From an uncultured Mycoplasmatota bacterium (GTDB lineage: Bacteria; Bacillota_I; Bacilli_A; RF39; UBA660), in the NCBI GenBank assembly GCA_946497145.1, contig CAMMJA010000010.1, positions 1 through 35,033 on the forward strand: a DNA stretch of 35,033 bases, read 5' to 3'. Below the pieces are notes generated by a model. The model was not told where the DNA came from and made no database searches. It saw nothing but the letters and a program-made list of their open reading frames with translations. Positions 7,236 through 29,078 of the stretch are shown here, piece by piece; within the stretch, counting starts at the first letter, position 1, and every line of letters starts with the position of its first letter. The position numbers and the translations under genes were made by a program.

Positions 7236-7535
7236 ATGGCTAATGTGACAAGTGTTATTAACGTTAATGTTCCAGCAGAAGTAAAAGAAGAAGCAAATAG
7301 TATTCTTAATAATTTAGGGTTGAATATGACTACGGCTATCAATGTGTTTTTAAAAAGAGTTATTTACGAGCGTGGCATTCCTTTTGAAGTGAAAGAACCA
7401 AGGCCGAGTAAACAAACGTTGGATTCTTTACAAGAGTTAGATTATATGGAAACGCATCCTGATGAGTATAAAGCTTATTATAGTGTTGCAGAATTAAAAG
7501 AGAGTTTGTTATCTGATGATGAAATATCATATTAA
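7236..7535 (+). CDS. RelB/DinJ-family antitoxin
   Basis: Small protein (99 residues) of the RelB/DinJ ribbon-helix-helix family. Residues about 5-15 (SVINVNVPAEVK) form the DNA-binding strand. They are followed by EEANSILNNLGLNMTTAINVFLKRVI, the characteristic DinJ helix pair ending in the segment before GIPFEV. The acidic C-terminus would wrap around and neutralise the toxin. ATG 7236 is chosen because AAGGAAGG is 7 bases upstream; an out-of-frame ATG lies at 7231. The last 20 bases overlap the toxin gene, the usual arrangement for coupled translation. Expected role: bind the toxin and repress the shared promoter. Confidence 0.9.
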   Translation: MANVTSVINVNVPAEVKEEANSILNNLGLNMTTAINVFLKRVIYERGIPFEVKEPRPSKQTLDSLQELDYMETHPDEYKAYYSVAELKESLLSDDEISY

Positions 7536-7803
7536 GTATTCTAAAAATTTTAAAAAACAATTAAAGAGAATACTAAAACAAGGTAAGGACATTGATAAAC
7601 TATTGATCGTTGTAGATGTGTTAGCAAAGGGACAATCTTTAGATATTAAATATAAGGATCATGCTTTGATTGATAATAAATACTATCGTAATTGTAGAGA
7701 ATGTCATATTGAGCCGGATTGGTTATTGGTTTATAAATATCATAATAGTGAGTTAATATTATATTTAGTAGAAACAGGGAGTCATAGTGATTTGTTTATT
7801 TAG
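7516..7803 (+). CDS. YafQ-family mRNA interferase toxin
   Basis: Predicted ribosome-dependent endoribonuclease toxin of the RelE/YafQ fold (95 residues; it may start at the second ATG, 7519). Residues known to be catalytic in E. coli YafQ have counterparts: His in YKDHAL, His-Asp-Trp in CHIEPDWLLVY, and the C-terminal His in TGSHSDLF. The toxin therefore looks intact. Its start lies inside the antitoxin gene, so toxin translation depends on antitoxin translation, and a terminator follows directly. The pair sits between conserved housekeeping genes, which suggests horizontal acquisition. Confidence 0.9.
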   Translation: MMKYHIKYSKNFKKQLKRILKQGKDIDKLLIVVDVLAKGQSLDIKYKDHALIDNKYYRNCRECHIEPDWLLVYKYHNSELILYLVETGSHSDLFI

Positions 7804-18909: not shown

Positions 18910-18936
18910 AAAAAGAGCAATCAATTGCTCTTTTTT
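18910..18936 (+). terminator. Terminator of the rplJ-rplL unit
   Basis: AAAAAGAGCAA (18910-18920), tetraloop TCAA, TTGCTCTTTTT (18925-18935): perfect 11-bp stem and T-run. Confidence 0.92.
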
Positions 18937-19009: not shown

Positions 19010-19771
19010 ATGGAAAAAATACAAAAAGTTGCTCTGATTACAGGAAGTAATCGTGGAATTGGAAAAGCAGTTGCGATACAACTAGCAGGGTGTGGATATT
19101 CCGTTGTCATACATTATTTTCAAGGGAAACACGAGGCAATAAAGGTAGCCGATGAAATTAAAAAACGTTTTGCTGTCGATGTAATGGTGGTAGGTGCCGA
19201 TTTAAAAAAAGAAACAGATATCCACAAAATGGTGGAAAAAGTTATGGAGAAATTTGGTCAGATTGATGTTTTGGTGCATAATGCAGCTGTGGAAATCAAT
19301 TCTGATTTTTGGGATAAAACAGTAGATGATTTTAAATTAACTTTTGATGTTAATGTATTTGGTCCTTTTTTACTTAGTAAAATAGTAGGAAAAATTATGA
19401 TGGAAAATAAAAAAGGGAAAATGATTTTTGTTACTTCTAATAATGCGATTGATCAAAATGATCCGATTACTTTAGAGTACGATGCTTCTAAAGCAGTACT
19501 TCACTCTATGATTAAGAATTTGTCAATTCAGTTTGCACCTTGGATTGCTATTAACGGAGTGGCACCTGGATGGATTTCCACAGAAAAAGTGGAAAAAATA
19601 AATCAAGAACTGCAAGGAAAGTTCGAGGAAGAAGAAAGTAAGCGTATTTTGTTAGGTCGATTTGGGAAGCCGGAAGAAGTTGCTAGCGTCATTTCTTTTT
19701 TGGCAAGTGAGGAATCAAGTTACATTAATGGAGAAATTATTCGGGTAGATGGAGGTGTGAGAAATGTATAA
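19010..19771 (+). CDS. SDR-family NAD(P)-dependent oxidoreductase
   Basis: Classical short-chain dehydrogenase of 253 residues. The cofactor site TGSNRGIGKAVA is near residue 12; the second signature is DVLVHNAAVE. Catalytic residues are Ser in FVTSNNA, and Tyr/Lys in YDASKAVL. The C-terminus has APGWISTEKV and the tetramer-interface end GEIIRVDGG. It resembles FabG-like enzymes (for example B. subtilis YmfI), but the substrate is not predictable. It overlaps the next gene by 8 bases (the ATG lies inside its last codons), which implies tight coupling with the PLP enzyme. This pair is inserted between rplL and rsmC, which are adjacent in B. subtilis. Confidence 0.85.
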   Translation: MEKIQKVALITGSNRGIGKAVAIQLAGCGYSVVIHYFQGKHEAIKVADEIKKRFAVDVMVVGADLKKETDIHKMVEKVMEKFGQIDVLVHNAAVEINSDFWDKTVDDFKLTFDVNVFGPFLLSKIVGKIMMENKKGKMIFVTSNNAIDQNDPITLEYDASKAVLHSMIKNLSIQFAPWIAINGVAPGWISTEKVEKINQELQGKFEEEESKRILLGRFGKPEEVASVISFLASEESSYINGEIIRVDGGVRNV

Positions 19772-21014
19772 AAATTTTAGGATAGCAGATGAACTTGTTA
19801 GAAAAACAGAAGAGGCAGAGCTTGCAGTTCAGCAACAATTTCGTGAAATTGATAAAGTGTGTGAGTTCAATAGTTTGAAGGTATTGCAAGCGTTTCATAA
19901 ATACCAAATATCGGAAGTTCATTTTAATAGCACAACGGGTTATGGATACAATGATATAGGAAGAGATACGATTGAAAAAGTTTTTGCGGAAGTATTGGGA
20001 AGTGAAGATGCTTTAGTACGTGGACAATTTATATCTGGAACACATGCTTTAACAGTAACGTTGTTTGCACTTTTGCGACCTGGTGATTTATTGCTTAGTA
20101 TTACAGGTAAACCATACGATACTTTGGACGAGGTAATTGGAATAAAGGAAAATGCTAGTTCTTTAAAATCATTTGGAGTAAAATATGATCAGATAGATTT
20201 GATTGATGATGATTTTGATTATGAAAAGATTATAACTTATTTAAAAAATAATAAAGTAAAAGTCATTGAAATTCAAAGATCGAAAGGATATTCAACGAGG
20301 AAAAGCATTACGATTGAACAAGTGGAAAAGGTTATCAAGAAAATTCGTGAAGTAGATCAAGACGTTATTGTTATGATTGACAATTGTTATTGTGAATTTG
20401 TGGGAACCAAAGAACCAACAGAAGTAGGCGCTGATATTATGGTTGGCTCGCTCATTAAAAATTTAGGAGGCGGAATTGCGCCGAATGGTGCTTATGTTGC
20501 AGGACACAACGATTTGATCGAATTGGTAGCAGAACGTTTGACTGCCCCAGGTGAAGGACGAGAAGTAGGACCAACTCTTGGAATTAACAAGTTATTTTTA
20601 CAAGGTTTATTCTTTGCTCCGAGCGTGGTTGCTAGTAGTTTGAAAACGGCGGTTTTGGCTAGCAAATTACTAGAAGATATGGGTTATGAAGTAGAGCCAA
20701 AATATCATGATGTTAGAGCGGATATTGTGCAAAATATTGTTTTCCGTGATAAAGAAAAGTTGATTCGCTATTGTCAAGGCATACAAATGGCTTCACCGAT
20801 TGATTCTCATGCAATTCCTGAAGCATGGGATATGCCTGGTTATACCGATCAAGTAATTATGGCTGCTGGTTGCTTTACACAAGGATCATCGATCGAACTT
20901 TCTTGCGATGGTCCTATTCGAGCGCCATACATTGCTTATATGCAAGGAGGACTTACTTATCCATATGGTAAAATTGGCGTGATGAAAGCAGTACAACAGT
21001 TATTGCAGGAATAA
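19764..21014 (+). CDS. YnbB-type PLP-dependent enzyme (aluminium-resistance / methionine gamma-lyase-like)
   Basis: Fold-type I pyridoxal-phosphate enzyme of 416 residues. Visible elements: FNSTTGYGYNDIGRDTIEKVFAEVLG, RGQFISGTHAL (cofactor phosphate region), VMIDNCYCEFVGTKEP (the Asp that pairs with the pyridine nitrogen), and GSLIKNLGGGIAPNGAYVAG, whose Lys is the likely Schiff-base residue. Family members carry the old label aluminium resistance protein or methionine gamma-lyase family; the true reaction is not established. No ribosome site of its own is obvious beyond GGAGGTG inside the SDR gene, supporting translational coupling. The following hairpin at 21102-21142 may terminate this transcript. 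Confidence 0.85.
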   Translation: MYKNFRIADELVRKTEEAELAVQQQFREIDKVCEFNSLKVLQAFHKYQISEVHFNSTTGYGYNDIGRDTIEKVFAEVLGSEDALVRGQFISGTHALTVTLFALLRPGDLLLSITGKPYDTLDEVIGIKENASSLKSFGVKYDQIDLIDDDFDYEKIITYLKNNKVKVIEIQRSKGYSTRKSITIEQVEKVIKKIREVDQDVIVMIDNCYCEFVGTKEPTEVGADIMVGSLIKNLGGGIAPNGAYVAGHNDLIELVAERLTAPGEGREVGPTLGINKLFLQGLFFAPSVVASSLKTAVLASKLLEDMGYEVEPKYHDVRADIVQNIVFRDKEKLIRYCQGIQMASPIDSHAIPEAWDMPGYTDQVIMAAGCFTQGSSIELSCDGPIRAPYIAYMQGGLTYPYGKIGVMKAVQQLLQE

Positions 21015-21058
21015 TTGTACTTGCTCTACTTTGATAGAAAACAACGATAGAAAATGAT

Positions 21059-21087
21059 TGACATGTGGTAAATAAAATGTTATAATG
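21059..21087 (+). promoter_or_regulatory. Full-consensus promoter of rsmC (rpoBC unit)
   Basis: TTGACA (21059-21064), a 17-base spacer and TATAAT (21082-21087), both perfect, plus extended TGT. The start near 21094 lies just before a strong terminator-like hairpin. Confidence 0.88.
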
Positions 21088-21096
21088 TTTAATACG

Positions 21097-21142
21097 AAAG
21101 GAGACAACTATACTTTTGTTAGGTAGTTGTCTCTTTCTTTTT
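21097..21142 (+). terminator. Attenuator/terminator between promoter and rsmC
   Basis: GAGACAACTA (21102-21111) and TAGTTGTCTC (21124-21133) form a perfect 10-bp stem with a 12-base loop. It can be extended by GAAA/TTTC around a bulged G, and is followed by TTTCTTTTT. It lies within the first 50 bases of the predicted rsmC transcript, so it may act as an attenuator, as the end of the SDR-YnbB transcript, or both. Confidence 0.75.
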
Positions 21143-21157
21143 ATGGAGAATGATAGT

Positions 21158-21742
21158 GTGGGGCAATATTTTAGTAATGAAAAATTGAAAAGCAATCGGA
21201 AACAATATGATACGCAAGTGTTGGGACATCATTTTTCTTTTTATACAGATAACGGAGTGTTCTGTAAAGATTATTTAGATTTTGGTACGAGAGTGTTGTT
21301 AGAAAACTTACCTTTTTCAGAACTTGGTGAATCGGTTCTGGATGTTGGATGTGGATATGGTGTCATTGGTATTGTCATAAGTAAAATTGTCGGATGTTCT
21401 GTCGATATGATAGATGTGAATTTGCGTGCGATTCATTTAGCAAAGATGAATGCAAAAGAAAATGAAATAGATAACGTTCATATTTTTGAAAGTAATTGTT
21501 ATAGAAATGTAGAGAAAAAATATACGTCGATTATTACTAATCCTCCCATTCGAGCTGGAAAAAAAGTTGTTTATGAAATTGTGTTTGGAGCGAAAGATCA
21601 TTTGCTTGAAGATGGTAAATTATTTTTGGTGATTCGCAAAGATCAAGGAGCCAAATCGCTAATAAACGACTTACAGAAATTATACAATGTAGAAGTATTG
21701 AAACGAGATAAGGGTTTTTTTGTAATAAAATGTAGTTTGTGA
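21158..21742 (+). CDS. RsmC-like class I methyltransferase (YbxB)
   Basis: S-adenosylmethionine-dependent methyltransferase, 194 residues from GTG 21158. Motif I VLDVGCGYGVIGIV binds the cofactor; ITNPPIRAGKKVV is the NPP motif of RNA/DNA base methyltransferases of the RsmC (16S rRNA m2G1207) family. Homologous in place to B. subtilis ybxB, just before rpoB. I choose GTG because GGAG (21145-21148) is 9 bases upstream and homologues begin MxxYF, matching GQYF. ATG 21143 has no ribosome site and the ORF-track TTG 21116 lies in the attenuator loop. The single-domain length means the N-terminal pseudo-domain of E. coli RsmC is absent. The stop is TGA. Confidence 0.85.
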   Translation: MGQYFSNEKLKSNRKQYDTQVLGHHFSFYTDNGVFCKDYLDFGTRVLLENLPFSELGESVLDVGCGYGVIGIVISKIVGCSVDMIDVNLRAIHLAKMNAKENEIDNVHIFESNCYRNVEKKYTSIITNPPIRAGKKVVYEIVFGAKDHLLEDGKLFLVIRKDQGAKSLINDLQKLYNVEVLKRDKGFFVIKCSL

Positions 21743-21771
21743 TTGACTTATTGAATTATTTATGCTATTAA
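21743..21771 (+). promoter_or_regulatory. Promoter of rpoB-rpoC
   Basis: TTGACT (21743-21748, starting one base after the rsmC stop), a 17-base spacer and TATTAA (21766-21771) with TGC before it. Start about 21778. A hairpin AACGTATT / AATATGTT (21783-21809) occupies the 66-base leader. Confidence 0.65.
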
Positions 21772-21843
21772 TATAAATTGGCAACGTATTATTTTTTGTA
21801 AAATATGTTCTTTGAGGAAATATGTGTAATAGGGGTGAAATTT

Positions 21844-24800
21844 GTGGCATATAAGATCATTAATTGTGGTGAGCATAGGCAAAGAAGAAGTTTTTCAAGA
21901 ATTAGAAATACTTATGAATTAAAGGATTTGTTAGAAATCCAAAAGAAATCTTATCAATGGTTCATCGATACTGGAATTAAAGAAGTATTTGAGGACCTAT
22001 TCCCCGTAGAAAACTTTTCAGGGAAACTTTCGTTAGAATTTGGTGATTATCATTTTGATGAGCCAAGATATTCTATTAAAGAAAGCAAAGACCGTGAGAC
22101 GACTTATTCTGCACCTTTAAAAGTAGAGGTCCGTCTTTTTAATCATGAAACTGGAGAAGTAAAAGAGCAAGAAATTTTCTTGGGCGACATGCCAATCATG
22201 ACGGATAGTGGAACGTTTGTGATAAATGGTGCAGAGCGTGTTATTGTATCGCAGTTGGTGCGTTCACCAAGTGTATATTTTAATCGTGAAATCGATAAAA
22301 ATGGTCGTGAATTGATTACTTCTCAGATTATTCCAACTCGTGGTACATGGCTTGAATTTGAAACGGATGCGCGCGATGTACTTTATGTTCGTATCGATAG
22401 AACTAGAAAGGTAACACTTACGACATTGTTACGTGCTTTTGGCTTGTCAAGCGATGAAGAAATTTTAAAATTATTTGGTGAAGATGAGTATTTAAAAAAT
22501 ACTATTGCTAAAGATTCTACTAAGAATACTGATGAGGCATTGATTGAAATTTACGAAAAATTAAGACCAGGGGAACCAGCAACACTCGATTCTTCTAAGA
22601 ACCAAATTATTACGCGTTTCTTTGATGAATTCCGCTATGATTTGGCGAAAGTTGGACGTTATAAATTTAATCGTAAACTAAATGTGATCGATCGTTTGTT
22701 AAATCAAACCATTGCGGAAGATATTAAAGTAAATGGTGAAGTATTGTTTGAAAAAGGTACGTTGATTACCAAAGATATGTTGGAAAAACTAAGAGAAGTT
22801 TTTGCTGCTGGTTATGGAGTAAAAGAAGTAAAAATCAATGAAGAATTAGATACTTATAATAAGATTCAAGAAATTAAGATTTATGATCCGAATAATAAGA
22901 AAGAAAAGTTGGTTGTAATTGGAAATGATCAAACAATTACAGAAAAGCGTTTGACGATTTCGGATGTTTATGCGGCTGTTTCTTATTATTTGAATCTGTT
23001 GCACGGTGTAGGTAATTTTGATGAAATTGATCATTTGGGAAATCGTCGTATTCGTCAAGTTGGAGAACTTTTACAGAACCAATTTAGAATTGGTGTATCA
23101 CGTATGGAACGTGTGATTCGTGAGCGTATGACGACACAAGAAATGGAAGAAGTAACACCAAAGACGTTGATTAATATTCGTCCGGTTACAGCAGCGATGA
23201 AAGAATTTTTTGGTAGTAGTCAATTATCACAATTTATGGATCAGACAAACCCGGTTGCGGAACTTACCAACAAGCGTCGTTTGTCGGCTCTTGGACCAGG
23301 AGGACTTTCCCGTGATCGTGCTGGTGTAGAAGTGCGTGATGTCAATGCTTCTCACTACGGAAGAATTTGTCCAATTGAGTCACCAGAAGGACCTAACATT
23401 GGACTTATTACCTCCCTTGCAAGTTATGCAAAAATCGACGATTATGGATTCATTATGACGCCATATCGTAAAGTGGTAGATTCTAAAATTACGGATGAAG
23501 TACAATATTTAACTGCAGATGAAGAACAAGATTTTATTATTTCGCAATCTACAGTAGAAACTAACGAAGATAATGTCATCATTCAACCACGTGTCAATGC
23601 TCGTTTTAGAGGCGAAAATATTTTGGCGAAACCAGAACAGGTTGACTATATCGATGTTTCCCCTCAACAAGTGGTATCGATTACAACGAGTTGTATTCCA
23701 TTCTTGGAACACGATGATGCAACCCGTGCTTTGATGGGTGCGAACATGCAACGTCAGTCTGTCCCTCTTCTACAAGCGGAGGCACCATATGTTGGAACAG
23801 GAGTAGAGTATATTGCAGCTAAAGATTCTGGAGCGGTAATTGTGGCGAAAGCCGATGGTATCGTAGAATACGTCGATGCTAAAAAAATCGTAGTAAAAAA
23901 TAAAACAGGAAAAGATACTTACTACTTAGCAAATTTTGAACTTTCTAACTCTGGAATTTGTAATCATCAAAGACCAATTGTAAAACCAGGAGATAAGGTT
24001 GTACGAGGCGAGACTATTTTGGCCGATGGCAACAGTACAGATCAAGGAGAACTTGCTTTAGGAAAGAATATGGTTGTTGCTTTCATGACCTTTAATGGTT
24101 ACAACTATGAGGATGCTGTTATTTTAAATGAAAACTTGGTAAAAGATGATAAATATACTTCTTTACATTTAGATGATTATGAAATGCAGTGTCGTGAGAC
24201 TAAACTAGGACCAGAAGAAATCACAAGAGATATTCCAAACGTCAGTGAAGAAGCCCGTAAAAACTTAGACGAAAATGGTATTGTTACCATTGGTACAGAA
24301 GTAAAAGAAGGCGATATCCTAGTTGGTAAAGTAACGCCAAAAGGTATGGCAGAACTTACTTCAGAAGAAAAGTTATTACATGCCATTTTTGGTGAAAAAA
24401 CTCGTGAAGTTCGTGATACATCATTACGTGTACCACATGGTGGTGATGGTATTGTTCACGATATTAAGATCTATTCAAGAAAAGATAACGATGAGTTACC
24501 AGCAGGAGTATCCAAAGTAATTCGTGTTTACATTATTCAAAAGAGAAAAATTCAAGTTGGAGATAAAATGGCCGGACGTCATGGTAACAAAGGTGTCATT
24601 TCTTTGATTTTACCACAGGAAGATATGCCATATTTACCTGATGGAAGACCAGTTGATATCATGCTTAATCCACAAGGTGTGCCATCGCGTATGAACTTAG
24701 GACAGATTTTGGAGTTGCATTTAGGAATGGCTGCGAAGAAATTAGGAGTACATGTTGCGACACCAGTATTTGATGGTGCGCATACTTCTGATATTCAAGA

Positions 24801-25449
24801 AATGATGGAAGAAGCAGGAATGGATCCAGATGGTAAGACTGTATTGTATGATGGTCGTACAGGAGAACCGTTTGACAATCGAATTGCCGTTGGTGTTATG
24901 TATATGATCAAACTACATCATATGGTTGACGATAAATTACATGCACGTTCTACTGGACCATATTCTTTGGTTACACAGCAACCACTTGGTGGTAAGGCCC
25001 AATTTGGTGGACAAAGATTTGGGGAAATGGAAGTATGGGCGTTGTATGCTTATGGTGCAGCACATACTTTACAAGAAATTCTAACTGTTAAATCTGACGA
25101 TGTTTTAGGACGTGTAAAAGTTTATGAAGCAATTGTCAAAGGACAAGAAATTAATCAAGCAGGAGTACCAGAATCCTTTAGAGTATTGATGAAAGAATTC
25201 CAGGCCTTAGGACTTGATATTTCGATTATCGATGACAAAGGACAAGAGTTACAGTTAAAACAGATCGAAGAAGATGAAGATAAAGATGATATGAAGTTAT
25301 CGATCGATGAACTTGAAGTTGCACCTGCTATTGATGAAAAGAAAGAACGAGAAGAAGAAGAACTGGAAGAGGAAGACGAGGATGAAGATTTTCTTGATGA
25401 ATTTGACGAATTAGAGAACGAAGATATGGAAGGAGAGGATGAAGAATGA
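21844..25449 (+). CDS. rpoB: RNA polymerase beta subunit
   Basis: Catalytic-core subunit, 1201 residues from GTG 21844 (GGGGTG upstream; product [20 protein letters not shown]). The ORF-track start 21805 adds 13 residues without a ribosome site. All core regions are present: fork loop/rifampicin region [39 protein letters not shown], the EGPNIGL segment, [13 protein letters not shown] (active-site Lys/His region), and [25 protein letters not shown] (clamp). In the rifampicin pocket the position equivalent to E. coli His526 is Asn (residue 476). The C-terminus is a very acidic tail ([15 protein letters not shown]...). It overlaps rpoC by 4 bases (ATGA). Confidence 0.99.
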
Positions 25450-28400
25450 TCGCTGTAAATAAGTTTCAAGCCCTTAAAATAGGAATTGCCTCTCCTGATA
25501 AAATTCGGGAATGGAGTTATGGCGAAGTTAAGAAGCCAGAAACCATTAACTATCGTACGTTAAGACCAGAACGAGACGGGCTTTTCTGTGAAAAGATTTT
25601 TGGACCAACCAAAGATTTTGAGTGTGCCTGTGGAAAATACAAGCGCGTTCGTTATAAAAACATTGTCTGCGATCGTTGTGGGGTCGAAGTAACTCGTTCT
25701 AAAGTAAGACGTGAGAGAATGGGGCATATTGAACTTGCAACTCCTGTTTCTCACATTTGGTTCTTTAAAGGAGTACCATCTCGTATGGGGCTTGTTTTGG
25801 ACATGAGCCCAAGAGATTTGGAAGAAGTTTTGTACTTTGTTAGTTACGTTGTAATCGACAAGGGAATCGCCCCTTTAGAAAATAAACAAACATTATCTGA
25901 AAAAGAATATCGTGCTTACTATGAAAAGTATGGAAATGGATTCCGTGTTGGAATGGGAGCCGAAGCCATTAAAGAATTGTTACAAAAGGTGGACTTGGAA
26001 AAAGAAATCAACGAAATCAAAAAGGAATTAGAAGATGCCCAAGGACAAAAGAGAACGCGATTATTAAAAAGAATCGACGTGTTAGATTCGTTCTATCAGT
26101 CAGGAAATAAACCAGAGTGGATGATCATGGATGTGATTCCGGTTATCCCACCAGAACTACGTCCAATGATCCAGTTGGATGGTGGTCGTTTTGCGACGAG
26201 TGACTTGAACGATTTGTATCGTCGTGTCATCAATCGTAACAATCGTTTGAAAAAGTTAATCGATTTAGGAGCGCCTGGTATTATCATTCAAAATGAAAAG
26301 CGTATGTTACAAGAAGCGGTTGATGCTCTATTTGACAATGGTAGACGTGGAAGAAGTGTCACTGGTGCCGGAAATCGTCCTTTGAAATCAATTTCTAGTA
26401 TGTTAAAAGGTAAACAAGGACGTTTCCGTCAAAACTTGTTAGGAAAACGTGTTGACTATTCTGGACGTTCTGTTATCGTCGTCGGACCTAGTTTGAAGAT
26501 GTATCAATGTGGTATTCCAAAAGAAATGGCACTAGAACTTTTCAAACCACATGTAATCAACGGTTTGGTTAGTCGCGATATTGCACATAATATTAAAGCA
26601 GCCAAACGTTTGATTGAAAACCAAGATCCAGTTGTATGGGATGTTGTAGAGGATGTCATCAAAGAACATCCAGTACTACTTAACCGTGCACCTACTTTGC
26701 ATAGATTGGGTATTCAAGCATTTGAACCAATCTTAGTAGGTGGAAAAGCGATTCGCTTACATCCACTTGTTTGTACCGCATTCAATGCAGACTTCGATGG
26801 AGACCAGATGGCCGTTCACGTACCGCTTTCTGAGGAAGCGCAAGCAGAAGCACGTATCTTGATGTTGGGTTCTAACAATATTTTGCATCCAAAATCAGGA
26901 GATCCGATCGTTACACCAAGTCAGGATATGGTTTTAGGTAATTACTATATTACAATGGAAAAAGCAGGACTAGAAGGCGAAGGACGTGTATTTAAAAATA
27001 CGAACGAGGCCTTGATGGCTTACGATCGTCGTGAATTAACACTTCATACGAGAGTAGCCGTTCCAGTAGATTCTTTCAAGTATAAGTTATTTACCGATGG
27101 TCAAAAAGGAAAGTATTTAGTTACGACAATTGGTAAAATTATCTTCAATGAAATTTTGCCAGATTCGTTCCCATATATTAATGAACCAACGGATGAAAAT
27201 ATTCAAAAGATTACACCAAATAAATATTTCATCGAAAAAGGAAAGAATATTCCAGAGGAAATCAAAAATATGCCTCTTGTAAAACCGTTTGCCAAAGGAA
27301 CACTAGAGAAGATTATTGCTCAAGTATTTAAACGTTATAAGACGACTGAAACATCCATCATGTTGGACAAACTAAAAGATCTTGGTTTTAAGTATTCGAC
27401 GATTGCTGGTATTACGGTTTCTATGTTCGATGTATCAAGTAGTGAACATAAAGATGAAATTGTCCAAGAAAGTCAAAAGATTGTAAGCAATATTAATAAG
27501 CAGTACAAGAAGGGTTTGATTACAGAACAAGAGCGATTTGAAAAAGTAATTGAAACATGGAATAACGCCAAGGATAAAGTTCAAAAAGAGTTAGAAGAAA
27601 TTGCTAATCGTGAAGTGGATAATCCAATTTTCATGATGATGCATTCCAAAGCGCGTGGTAACATTTCAAACTTTACGCAACTTGCTGGTATGCGTGGTAT
27701 CATGGCTAAGCCAAATGGAGAATCGGTAGAAATTCCTGTTATTTCAAACTTTAAGGAAGGTCTTTCGGTATCAGAATTCTTCTTATCGACGCATGGAGCC
27801 CGTAAAGGTAGTGCTGATACGGCACTTAAGACAGCCGATTCTGGATATTTGACGAGACGTTTGGTTGATGTATCGCAAGATATGATCGTGCGTGAAGAAG
27901 ATTGTGGAACGGATCAAGGTGTTGTGGTTCGTGACTTTATCAACGATAAAACAGGAAGCGTAATTGAAAGTTTGTACGATCGTATTGTTGGACGTTATGC
28001 GAATAAAAAGATCGTTCATCCTGAAACCAAAGCTGTGCTTGTCGACAAATTGCAAATGATCACAGAATCTATTGCTGAGAAAATTGTCGAAGCAGGCATT
28101 AAAGAAGTAGAAATTCGTAATATTTTGACATGTAACACAGTCAATGGTGTTTGTCAAAAATGTTATGGACGTAACTTGGCAACTGGTAACTTAGTAGAAA
28201 TTGGTGAGGCAGTTGGTGTTATGGCTGCTCAATCAATCGGAGAGCCGGGTACTCAGCTTACTATGCGTACTTTCCATACCGGTGGTGTTGCTGGTGGAGA
28301 AGATATTACACAAGGTTTGCCACGTATTCAAGAACTATTTGAAGCCCGCAATCCAAAAGGAAAGGCAACGATTGCTGAAATTGATGGTAAAATTACGAAG

Positions 28401-29078
28401 ATTTCTGAGGATCATGGTAAATTTAAAATTAGTATTACCAACGATTTGGAAACTAAAGATCACGTTTCTAATTATGGTGCGAAACTCCGTGTACAAAAAG
28501 GAGATAGAGTTGTTTGTGGCGATAAGTTGACGGAAGGAGCCATCAGTCCAAAAGAATTGTTGGCTGTAACGGATCCAATTACTACTCAAGAATATATTTT
28601 GAAAGAAGTACAAAACGTTTATCGTTCTCAAGGTGTTGATATTTCTGATAAACACGTGGAAATCATCGCACGTCGTATGATTTCTAAGATTCGTATTGTG
28701 GAAGCGGGAGATACGAACTTCTTGCCTGGTAGTTTGGTTAACTTCCATGAATTTACAGAAGGAAATAAACATGCAATTATTCAAAACAAGAAACCAGCAC
28801 TTGGTAAACCAATCTTGCTTGGTATCACCAAGGCCTCATTAGGAACAGATTCCTTCTTATCAGCAGCATCATTCCAAGAGACGACACGTATTTTGACAGA
28901 TGCTGCCATTAAGGGAAAAATAGATCCACTGTTGGGCTTAAAAGAAAATGTTTTAATTGGTAAGTTAATTCCAGCAGGAACTGGTATTAAAGATTATCAG
29001 AATGTGGAATATGACTTAGAAAGTCAGTTTAGTGACGAAGAACCACTCGAGACATTAGAAGATGAATTTATGGAATAA
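25446..29078 (+). CDS. rpoC: RNA polymerase beta' subunit
   Basis: Catalytic-core subunit, 1210 residues, normal for Firmicutes without large insertions. Zinc-binding domain [23 protein letters not shown] (about residues 60-82), clamp helices and lid before [28 protein letters not shown], the Mg-binding active site [12 protein letters not shown], bridge helix and trigger loop ([36 protein letters not shown] and [16 protein letters not shown]), and the second zinc site [13 protein letters not shown]. Translation starts within the rpoB stop (ATGA). A perfect 9-bp terminator with a GAAA loop contains its stop codon. Confidence 0.99.

Follow-up and report, generated by a model that had tools for sequence, protein, structure and literature searches.

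A lineage-specific promoter-hairpin element ahead of rsmC and rpoBC suggests transcription attenuation in uncultured gut Bacilli

The stretch of DNA analysed here, called the window throughout, is the whole 35,033-nt contig CAMMJA010000010.1, from an assembly of 0.98 Mb in 36 contigs. Immediately ahead of an RsmC/YbxB-like methyltransferase gene (rsmC below) and the RNA polymerase genes rpoB and rpoC, it carries a consensus promoter followed at once by a hairpin with a U-tract, whose left arm resembles a Shine-Dalgarno (SD) sequence. Based on the comparison of related sequences, this element is very probably a lineage-specific, promoter-proximal transcription attenuator of rsmC-rpoB-rpoC that terminates in vivo. 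We prefer attenuation because it explains the promoter, the hairpin, the U-tract and their fixed geometry together, and the combination suggests an undescribed RNA switch that may tune the amount of RNA polymerase. The element and the gene that it precedes comprise the following features:

21058..21086, + strand: sigma-A type promoter TTGACA-17-TATAAT with TG before the -10 box, matching the consensus at 12/12 positions; 17-nt spacing in 80/82 homologous sites
21094, + strand: predicted transcription start, the A of ACGAAAGGAG, inferred at 8 nt past the -10 box; the distance from the end of the -10 box to GAAAGG is 7-10 nt in 79/82 copies
21096..21103, + strand: GAAAGGAG, SD-like 5'-terminal strand; GAAAGG near-invariant in 82 copies, with no start codon at functional spacing
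21096..21136, + strand: predicted attenuator (terminator) hairpin with left arm 21096-21110, loop 21111-21123 and right arm 21124-21136, from fold z-score and covariation
21134..21142, + strand: U-tract TTTCTTTTT; 8 or more of the 12 nt past the inner stem are T in 75/82 copies, against 7% of background windows
21145..21148, + strand: GGAG, SD sequence of rsmC, from sequence and alignment with relatives
21158..21742, + strand: RsmC/YbxB-like methyltransferase gene with GTG start; PF05175 E 3e-44, NCBIfam RsmC below cut-off

The two promoter boxes lie at 21058-21063 (TTGACA) and 21081-21086 (TATAAT), as originally predicted except that the start had been placed one base late, at 21059. Perfect promoters of this kind occur twice in the window, against 0.08 expected from dinucleotide shuffles. 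The hairpin, composed of GAAAGGAGACAACTA, a 13-nt loop and TAGTTGTCTCTTT, begins 9 nt after the promoter and folds with -18.3 kcal/mol (z = -4.65), a stability reached by 0/200 shuffles, in agreement with the strong terminator proposed ahead of rsmC. Its stable stem stands directly before the U-tract and between the promoter and the first gene, which is the arrangement of an intrinsic-terminator attenuator. From a start near 21094, the predicted termination product would be about 49 nt long and would end before the GTG at 21158. The hairpin was not in the output of a simple terminator scan of the window, probably because its loop is longer than 8 nt.

Methyltransferase relatives were gathered and their upstream regions read, and the element was found in 82 distinct regions upstream of the rsmC/ybxB-like gene. 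These represent about 32 genera (our count from sequence handles) of one uncultured Bacilli family, the named relatives being uncultured Bacilli of rabbit and ruminant gut. Judged from these copies, the hairpin in the window is not a chance structure. As the distance from the -10 box to GAAAGG is fixed, the left arm is predicted to form the extreme 5' end of the RNA. On the methyltransferase tree the carriers form approximately one clade, with two label changes and one nested non-carrier. The original prediction had held that a promoter kept in close relatives after loss of the hairpin would count against it; the carrier clade keeps the hairpin, and promoters lacking a hairpin come from a different clade of the family, made up of non-carriers.

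The arms were aligned by stem register, since their lengths differ and a MAFFT alignment of the whole hairpin misplaced GAAAGG; one model-search alignment that contained opposite-strand matches to the same hairpins was not used. In the stem-register alignment, left-arm positions 7-13 show covariation with the bases opposite, and position 10 alone occurs as A-U (35), C-G (22), U-A (20) and G-C (4). Across 35 distinct arm pairs, 98.3% of stem cells are paired; shuffles reach 72.0%, and slid registers no more than 64%. Both sides are changed in 87 cells, compared with 27 in shuffles. Because the register of each sequence comes from its own predicted fold, it is biased toward pairing, but the variety of pair types in the alignment is far in excess of that bias. 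Conservation of both arms and loop had been suggested as a check: the arms are conserved, as a covarying stem and a near-invariant GAAAGG, while the loop is variable, and neither loop nor inner stem holds a conserved sequence.

The element is also specific to this locus. The host genome has one strong model match, which lies here; the others are weak, and a weak copy that we inspected has no promoter-hairpin unit. Across 386 genomes of the family, the strongest matches are at this operon, and matches in other families of the class proved to be unrelated hairpins with neither rsmC nor rpoB nearby, although absence elsewhere is not fully proven by large scans that used strict filters and a model built from one sub-type. 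The pattern TATTAT-N5-9-CGAAAGG found elsewhere belonged mostly to ordinary genes with an SD and a start codon, or arose by chance within coding sequence. Rfam 15 gave no family at its gathering threshold on the element (best ctRNA_pT181, 27.4 bits against the 56 needed), and nothing relevant at either strict or loose thresholds. A riboswitch was rejected, as the single hairpin with its variable loop offers no conserved ligand-binding fold beyond the terminator. A literature search returned no comparable rpoBC attenuator, and nothing on the motif name 'Firmicutes-rpoB'. With no Rfam family or paper found that describes it, the element appears to define a new family of attenuators, unusual for its kind because the terminator has as its left arm an SD-like sequence at the very 5' end, with no open reading frame (ORF).

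The AAAGGAG that had been pointed out in the left arm is indeed present, and is the most conserved part of the element. Positions 1, 3, 5 and 6 of GAAAGG are invariant in the 82 copies. G5 and G6 are kept in 82/82 even though the base opposite in the hairpin is U in 77 copies for G5 and in 37 for G6, so that A would be tolerated or preferred at these positions if only the stability of the hairpin counted. Within positions 1-7, only A-to-G substitutions occur (two at position 2, one at position 4 and 17 at position 7, which also tracks its hairpin partner), and this is the pattern that pairing with an invariant 3'-CUUUCCU-5' anti-SD sequence would permit. In the same genome GAAAGGAGAC serves as the SD of rpsL, and GAAAGGAG(G) and similar strings serve as the SD of other genes in the family. 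No leader ORF is conserved: a start codon stands 4-10 nt downstream of the SD-like strand in only 4/82 copies, and a start codon anywhere in the leader in 64/82, against 68 expected. A leader-peptide attenuator was therefore rejected, as the 82 copies hold no conserved short ORF with an SD at functional spacing. What remains is a strong SD with no start codon of its own, close to where the mRNA is predicted to begin, which is the arrangement of a STAB-SD.

How far the element's control would reach into rpoBC was judged from the genes and signals on either side of it:

18914..18936, + strand: terminator after rplL, separating rplJL from the downstream genes; present in 20/27 carriers with adjacent rplL
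21743..21781, + strand: separate rpoB promoter TTGACT-17-TATTAA with conserved ATAAATTGG; lost in 16/46 carriers with data
21844..25449, + strand: rpoB, from the ORF list; rpoB is the next gene in loci with enough downstream DNA
25446..29078, + strand: rpoC, from the ORF list

Much of the family, the window included, has its own conserved rpoB promoter. Where that promoter is lost, the hairpin is retained and the gap between rsmC and rpoB shrinks to as little as 10 nt; upstream transcripts into rpoBC must then pass the hairpin, which cannot be a complete stop. Hairpins are weaker in these lineages (mean -14.4 against -16.9 kcal/mol, p = 0.0005, uncorrected for relatedness). The attenuator over rsmC and part of rpoBC that had been proposed from the window alone thus gains comparative support from the covarying stem, the U-tract, the promoter spacing, the single locus per genome and the lineages without an rpoB promoter. 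As a separate observation, the rpoB leader (21743-21843 in the window, and eleven further loci among others) has TTGAC-17-TAnnnT and a conserved TATAAATTGG, followed by a hairpin whose sequence varies (GGCATATACTTTAAGTCAGTATATGC is one case); it has no Rfam match, and from its sequence it looks like a second conserved leader.

To account for both the hairpin and the constancy of its 5' strand, we propose the following mechanism. RNA polymerase would start near 21094, giving an RNA that begins (A)CGAAAGGAG. If left free, the 5' strand would pair with the strand leading into the U-tract and transcription would stop after about 49 nt; if occupied, RNA polymerase would continue into rsmC and rpoBC. 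A tentative candidate for the occupant, which we infer at rather below even likelihood, is a free 30S subunit bound to the 5'-terminal SD without start codon. This signal is favoured because it accounts both for a GAAAGG that stays constant at the expense of hairpin stability and for the dispensability of an ORF, and because it would make a sensible feedback between RNA polymerase and ribosomes. With ribosomes in excess over mRNA, 30S subunits would occupy the SD, the terminator would be blocked and rpoBC transcription would rise; with mRNA in excess, RNA polymerase synthesis would fall. Attenuation and 30S signal together serve us as a working model to which we give not quite an even chance, and it seems somewhat unlikely that the loop would go as far as an RNA setting RNA polymerase synthesis through direct sensing of free 30S subunits. 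The earlier idea that a ribosome or protein could open the hairpin stands as a lead, owing to the independent constraint on the SD-like strand.

Several points weigh against this model. The 3' region of 16S rRNA, presumed to be CCUCCUUUC, was not found by exact and one-mismatch patterns in 13 genomes of the family, probably because it is absent or left out from the assemblies, so the anti-SD match is drawn from SD usage in mRNAs, where SDs of the expected type are used. Constraint on the first six bases could also have another cause, such as initiation or an RNA-binding protein. The link between weaker hairpins and loss of the rpoB promoter depends on phylogeny, as that label changes about three times on the tree. 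Finally, rpoB has its own promoter in most carriers, in which the attenuator may act mainly on rsmC.

The strongest competitor, though less probable than a 30S signal, is a constitutive set-point attenuator that cuts output by a fixed fraction and senses nothing, with GAAAGG held for initiation or early elongation. Such a constraint would suit the place of GAAAGG at +1 to +8, at a fixed distance from the -10 box, together with the likewise conserved T at -3 and C at -1 just ahead of it, and the differences in hairpin strength between lineages would suit a set-point. However, neither the other perfect promoter of the window (17828) nor the rpoB promoter has a GAAAGG-type start, and substitutions restricted to A to G are not predicted. 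It is less likely again that the terminator is controlled through recognition of the (U)ACGAAAGG strand by an RNA-binding protein or some other ligand; independent sequence constraint on one hairpin strand is what this would produce, but there is no conserved loop or second structural domain, and no candidate protein was identified. We consider it improbable that the element is a STAB-SD-like 5' stabiliser, in which a bound ribosome would shield the mRNA from decay and the hairpin would serve chiefly as a protective stem, as the retained U-tract is characteristic of terminators and could be dispensed with in a stabiliser, and the SD would be sequestered in the folded mRNA.

A trans-acting small RNA of about 49 nt is very improbable: a strong promoter with an immediate terminator would yield an abundant short RNA, as the 48-nt product of the original prediction, but nothing seen favours this alternative, the element is fixed before rsmC/rpoBC in all genera, it is the only nearby route to rpoBC in 16 lineages, and neither loop nor inner stem offers a conserved sequence usable as a seed. 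That the hairpin merely terminates an SDR-YnbB operon, its proximity to the promoter being incidental, can be dismissed, for although the window shows no further terminator behind ynbB, the 82 copies stand behind different upstream genes and the earlier link to that operon is itself incidental, the two genes adjoining the element in the window only, among the loci examined.

Upstream of the element, the window holds rplJ with its L10 leader, rplL with its own terminator, and then the SDR-family gene and the Met_gamma_lyase (YnbB-type) gene (19010-21014). The L10 leader (RF00557; 17858-17972, 53.4 bits) lies upstream of rplJ, behind the second perfect promoter of the window; this is its only match, and none fell on the element even when E values up to 5 were allowed. 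The product of the first gene downstream is an MTS-domain methyltransferase (PF05175), whose GTG at 21158 aligns with the start codon of its relatives. As its score against the NCBIfam RsmC model (E 2.9e-22, 79 bits) is far under the cut-off of 295 bits, 'RsmC/YbxB-like' is the safe name, for a protein that is putatively rRNA-methylase-like. Elsewhere in the window, at 7236-7803, two overlapping small ORFs resemble by eye a RelB/DinJ-type antitoxin and a YafQ/RelE-type toxin.

Genera differ in how much DNA lies between rplL and rsmC. In carriers the distance ranges from 116 to >4,300 nt; in many non-carriers of the family rsmC follows rplL by 53-91 nt, with a different hairpin and no promoter. 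It is likely that rsmC-rpoBC became uncoupled from the rplJL transcription unit and that a dedicated attenuated promoter took over. The hairpin between rplL and rsmC in non-carriers is itself conserved, being seen in 16 loci; it reads approximately GCCTRTACT...AGTATGGGCTTT with a weak U-tract, and is probably an ancestral read-through attenuator. In a single genome (G082) rsmC was not found, and the interval from rplL to rpoB still holds a promoter-like sequence, the hairpin and the rpoB promoter. As its congeners G306 and G372 retain rsmC, the gene seems to have been lost recently.

A conserved attenuator of about 50 nt before rpoBC, in some lineages the only nearby way into these genes, would give a compact handle on the question of how RNA polymerase and ribosomes are kept in balance in bacteria. 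The SD-like 5' strand provides a specific hypothesis on the signal, and the element would add an RNA family for a large, uncultured gut lineage of reduced genomes. In Escherichia coli, an attenuator between rplL and rpoB brings about partial termination ahead of rpoBC, inside the rplKAJL-rpoBC operon. Both it and the element precede rpoBC, but the element has its own promoter behind the rplL terminator, and the non-carriers with an rplL-hairpin-rsmC layout are closer to the E. coli arrangement.

The rplJL leader attenuator of Bacillus subtilis is a case of promoter-proximal transcription attenuation of a translation-machinery operon (PMC4538822). The L10 leader shares this mode of control and the gene neighbourhood with the element, but is a separate and larger leader upstream, whereas the element is one 5'-end hairpin before rsmC-rpoBC. 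The cryIIIA motif GAAAGGAGG resembles the element's GAAAGGAG. In Bacilli, a strong SD without start codon binds ribosomes and acts at a distance in the context of mRNA stability, and the STAB-SD of the cryIIIA and aprE 5' leaders resembles the element in lying near the 5' end with no associated start codon (PMC3997798). Those leaders act on mRNA stability, whereas the element uses its SD-like strand as the left arm of a hairpin that, with its U-tract, has the form of a terminator. A step from an SD-bound ribosome acting at a distance to antitermination would be drawn by analogy. Ribosome-mediated attenuators are known from yxjB and vmlR of B. subtilis (PMC6851288, PMC9226507), and there, as proposed for the element, a ribosome on the leader would choose between terminator and read-through. 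The element differs from both in having no leader ORF, such that binding, and not translational stalling, would be the deciding event.
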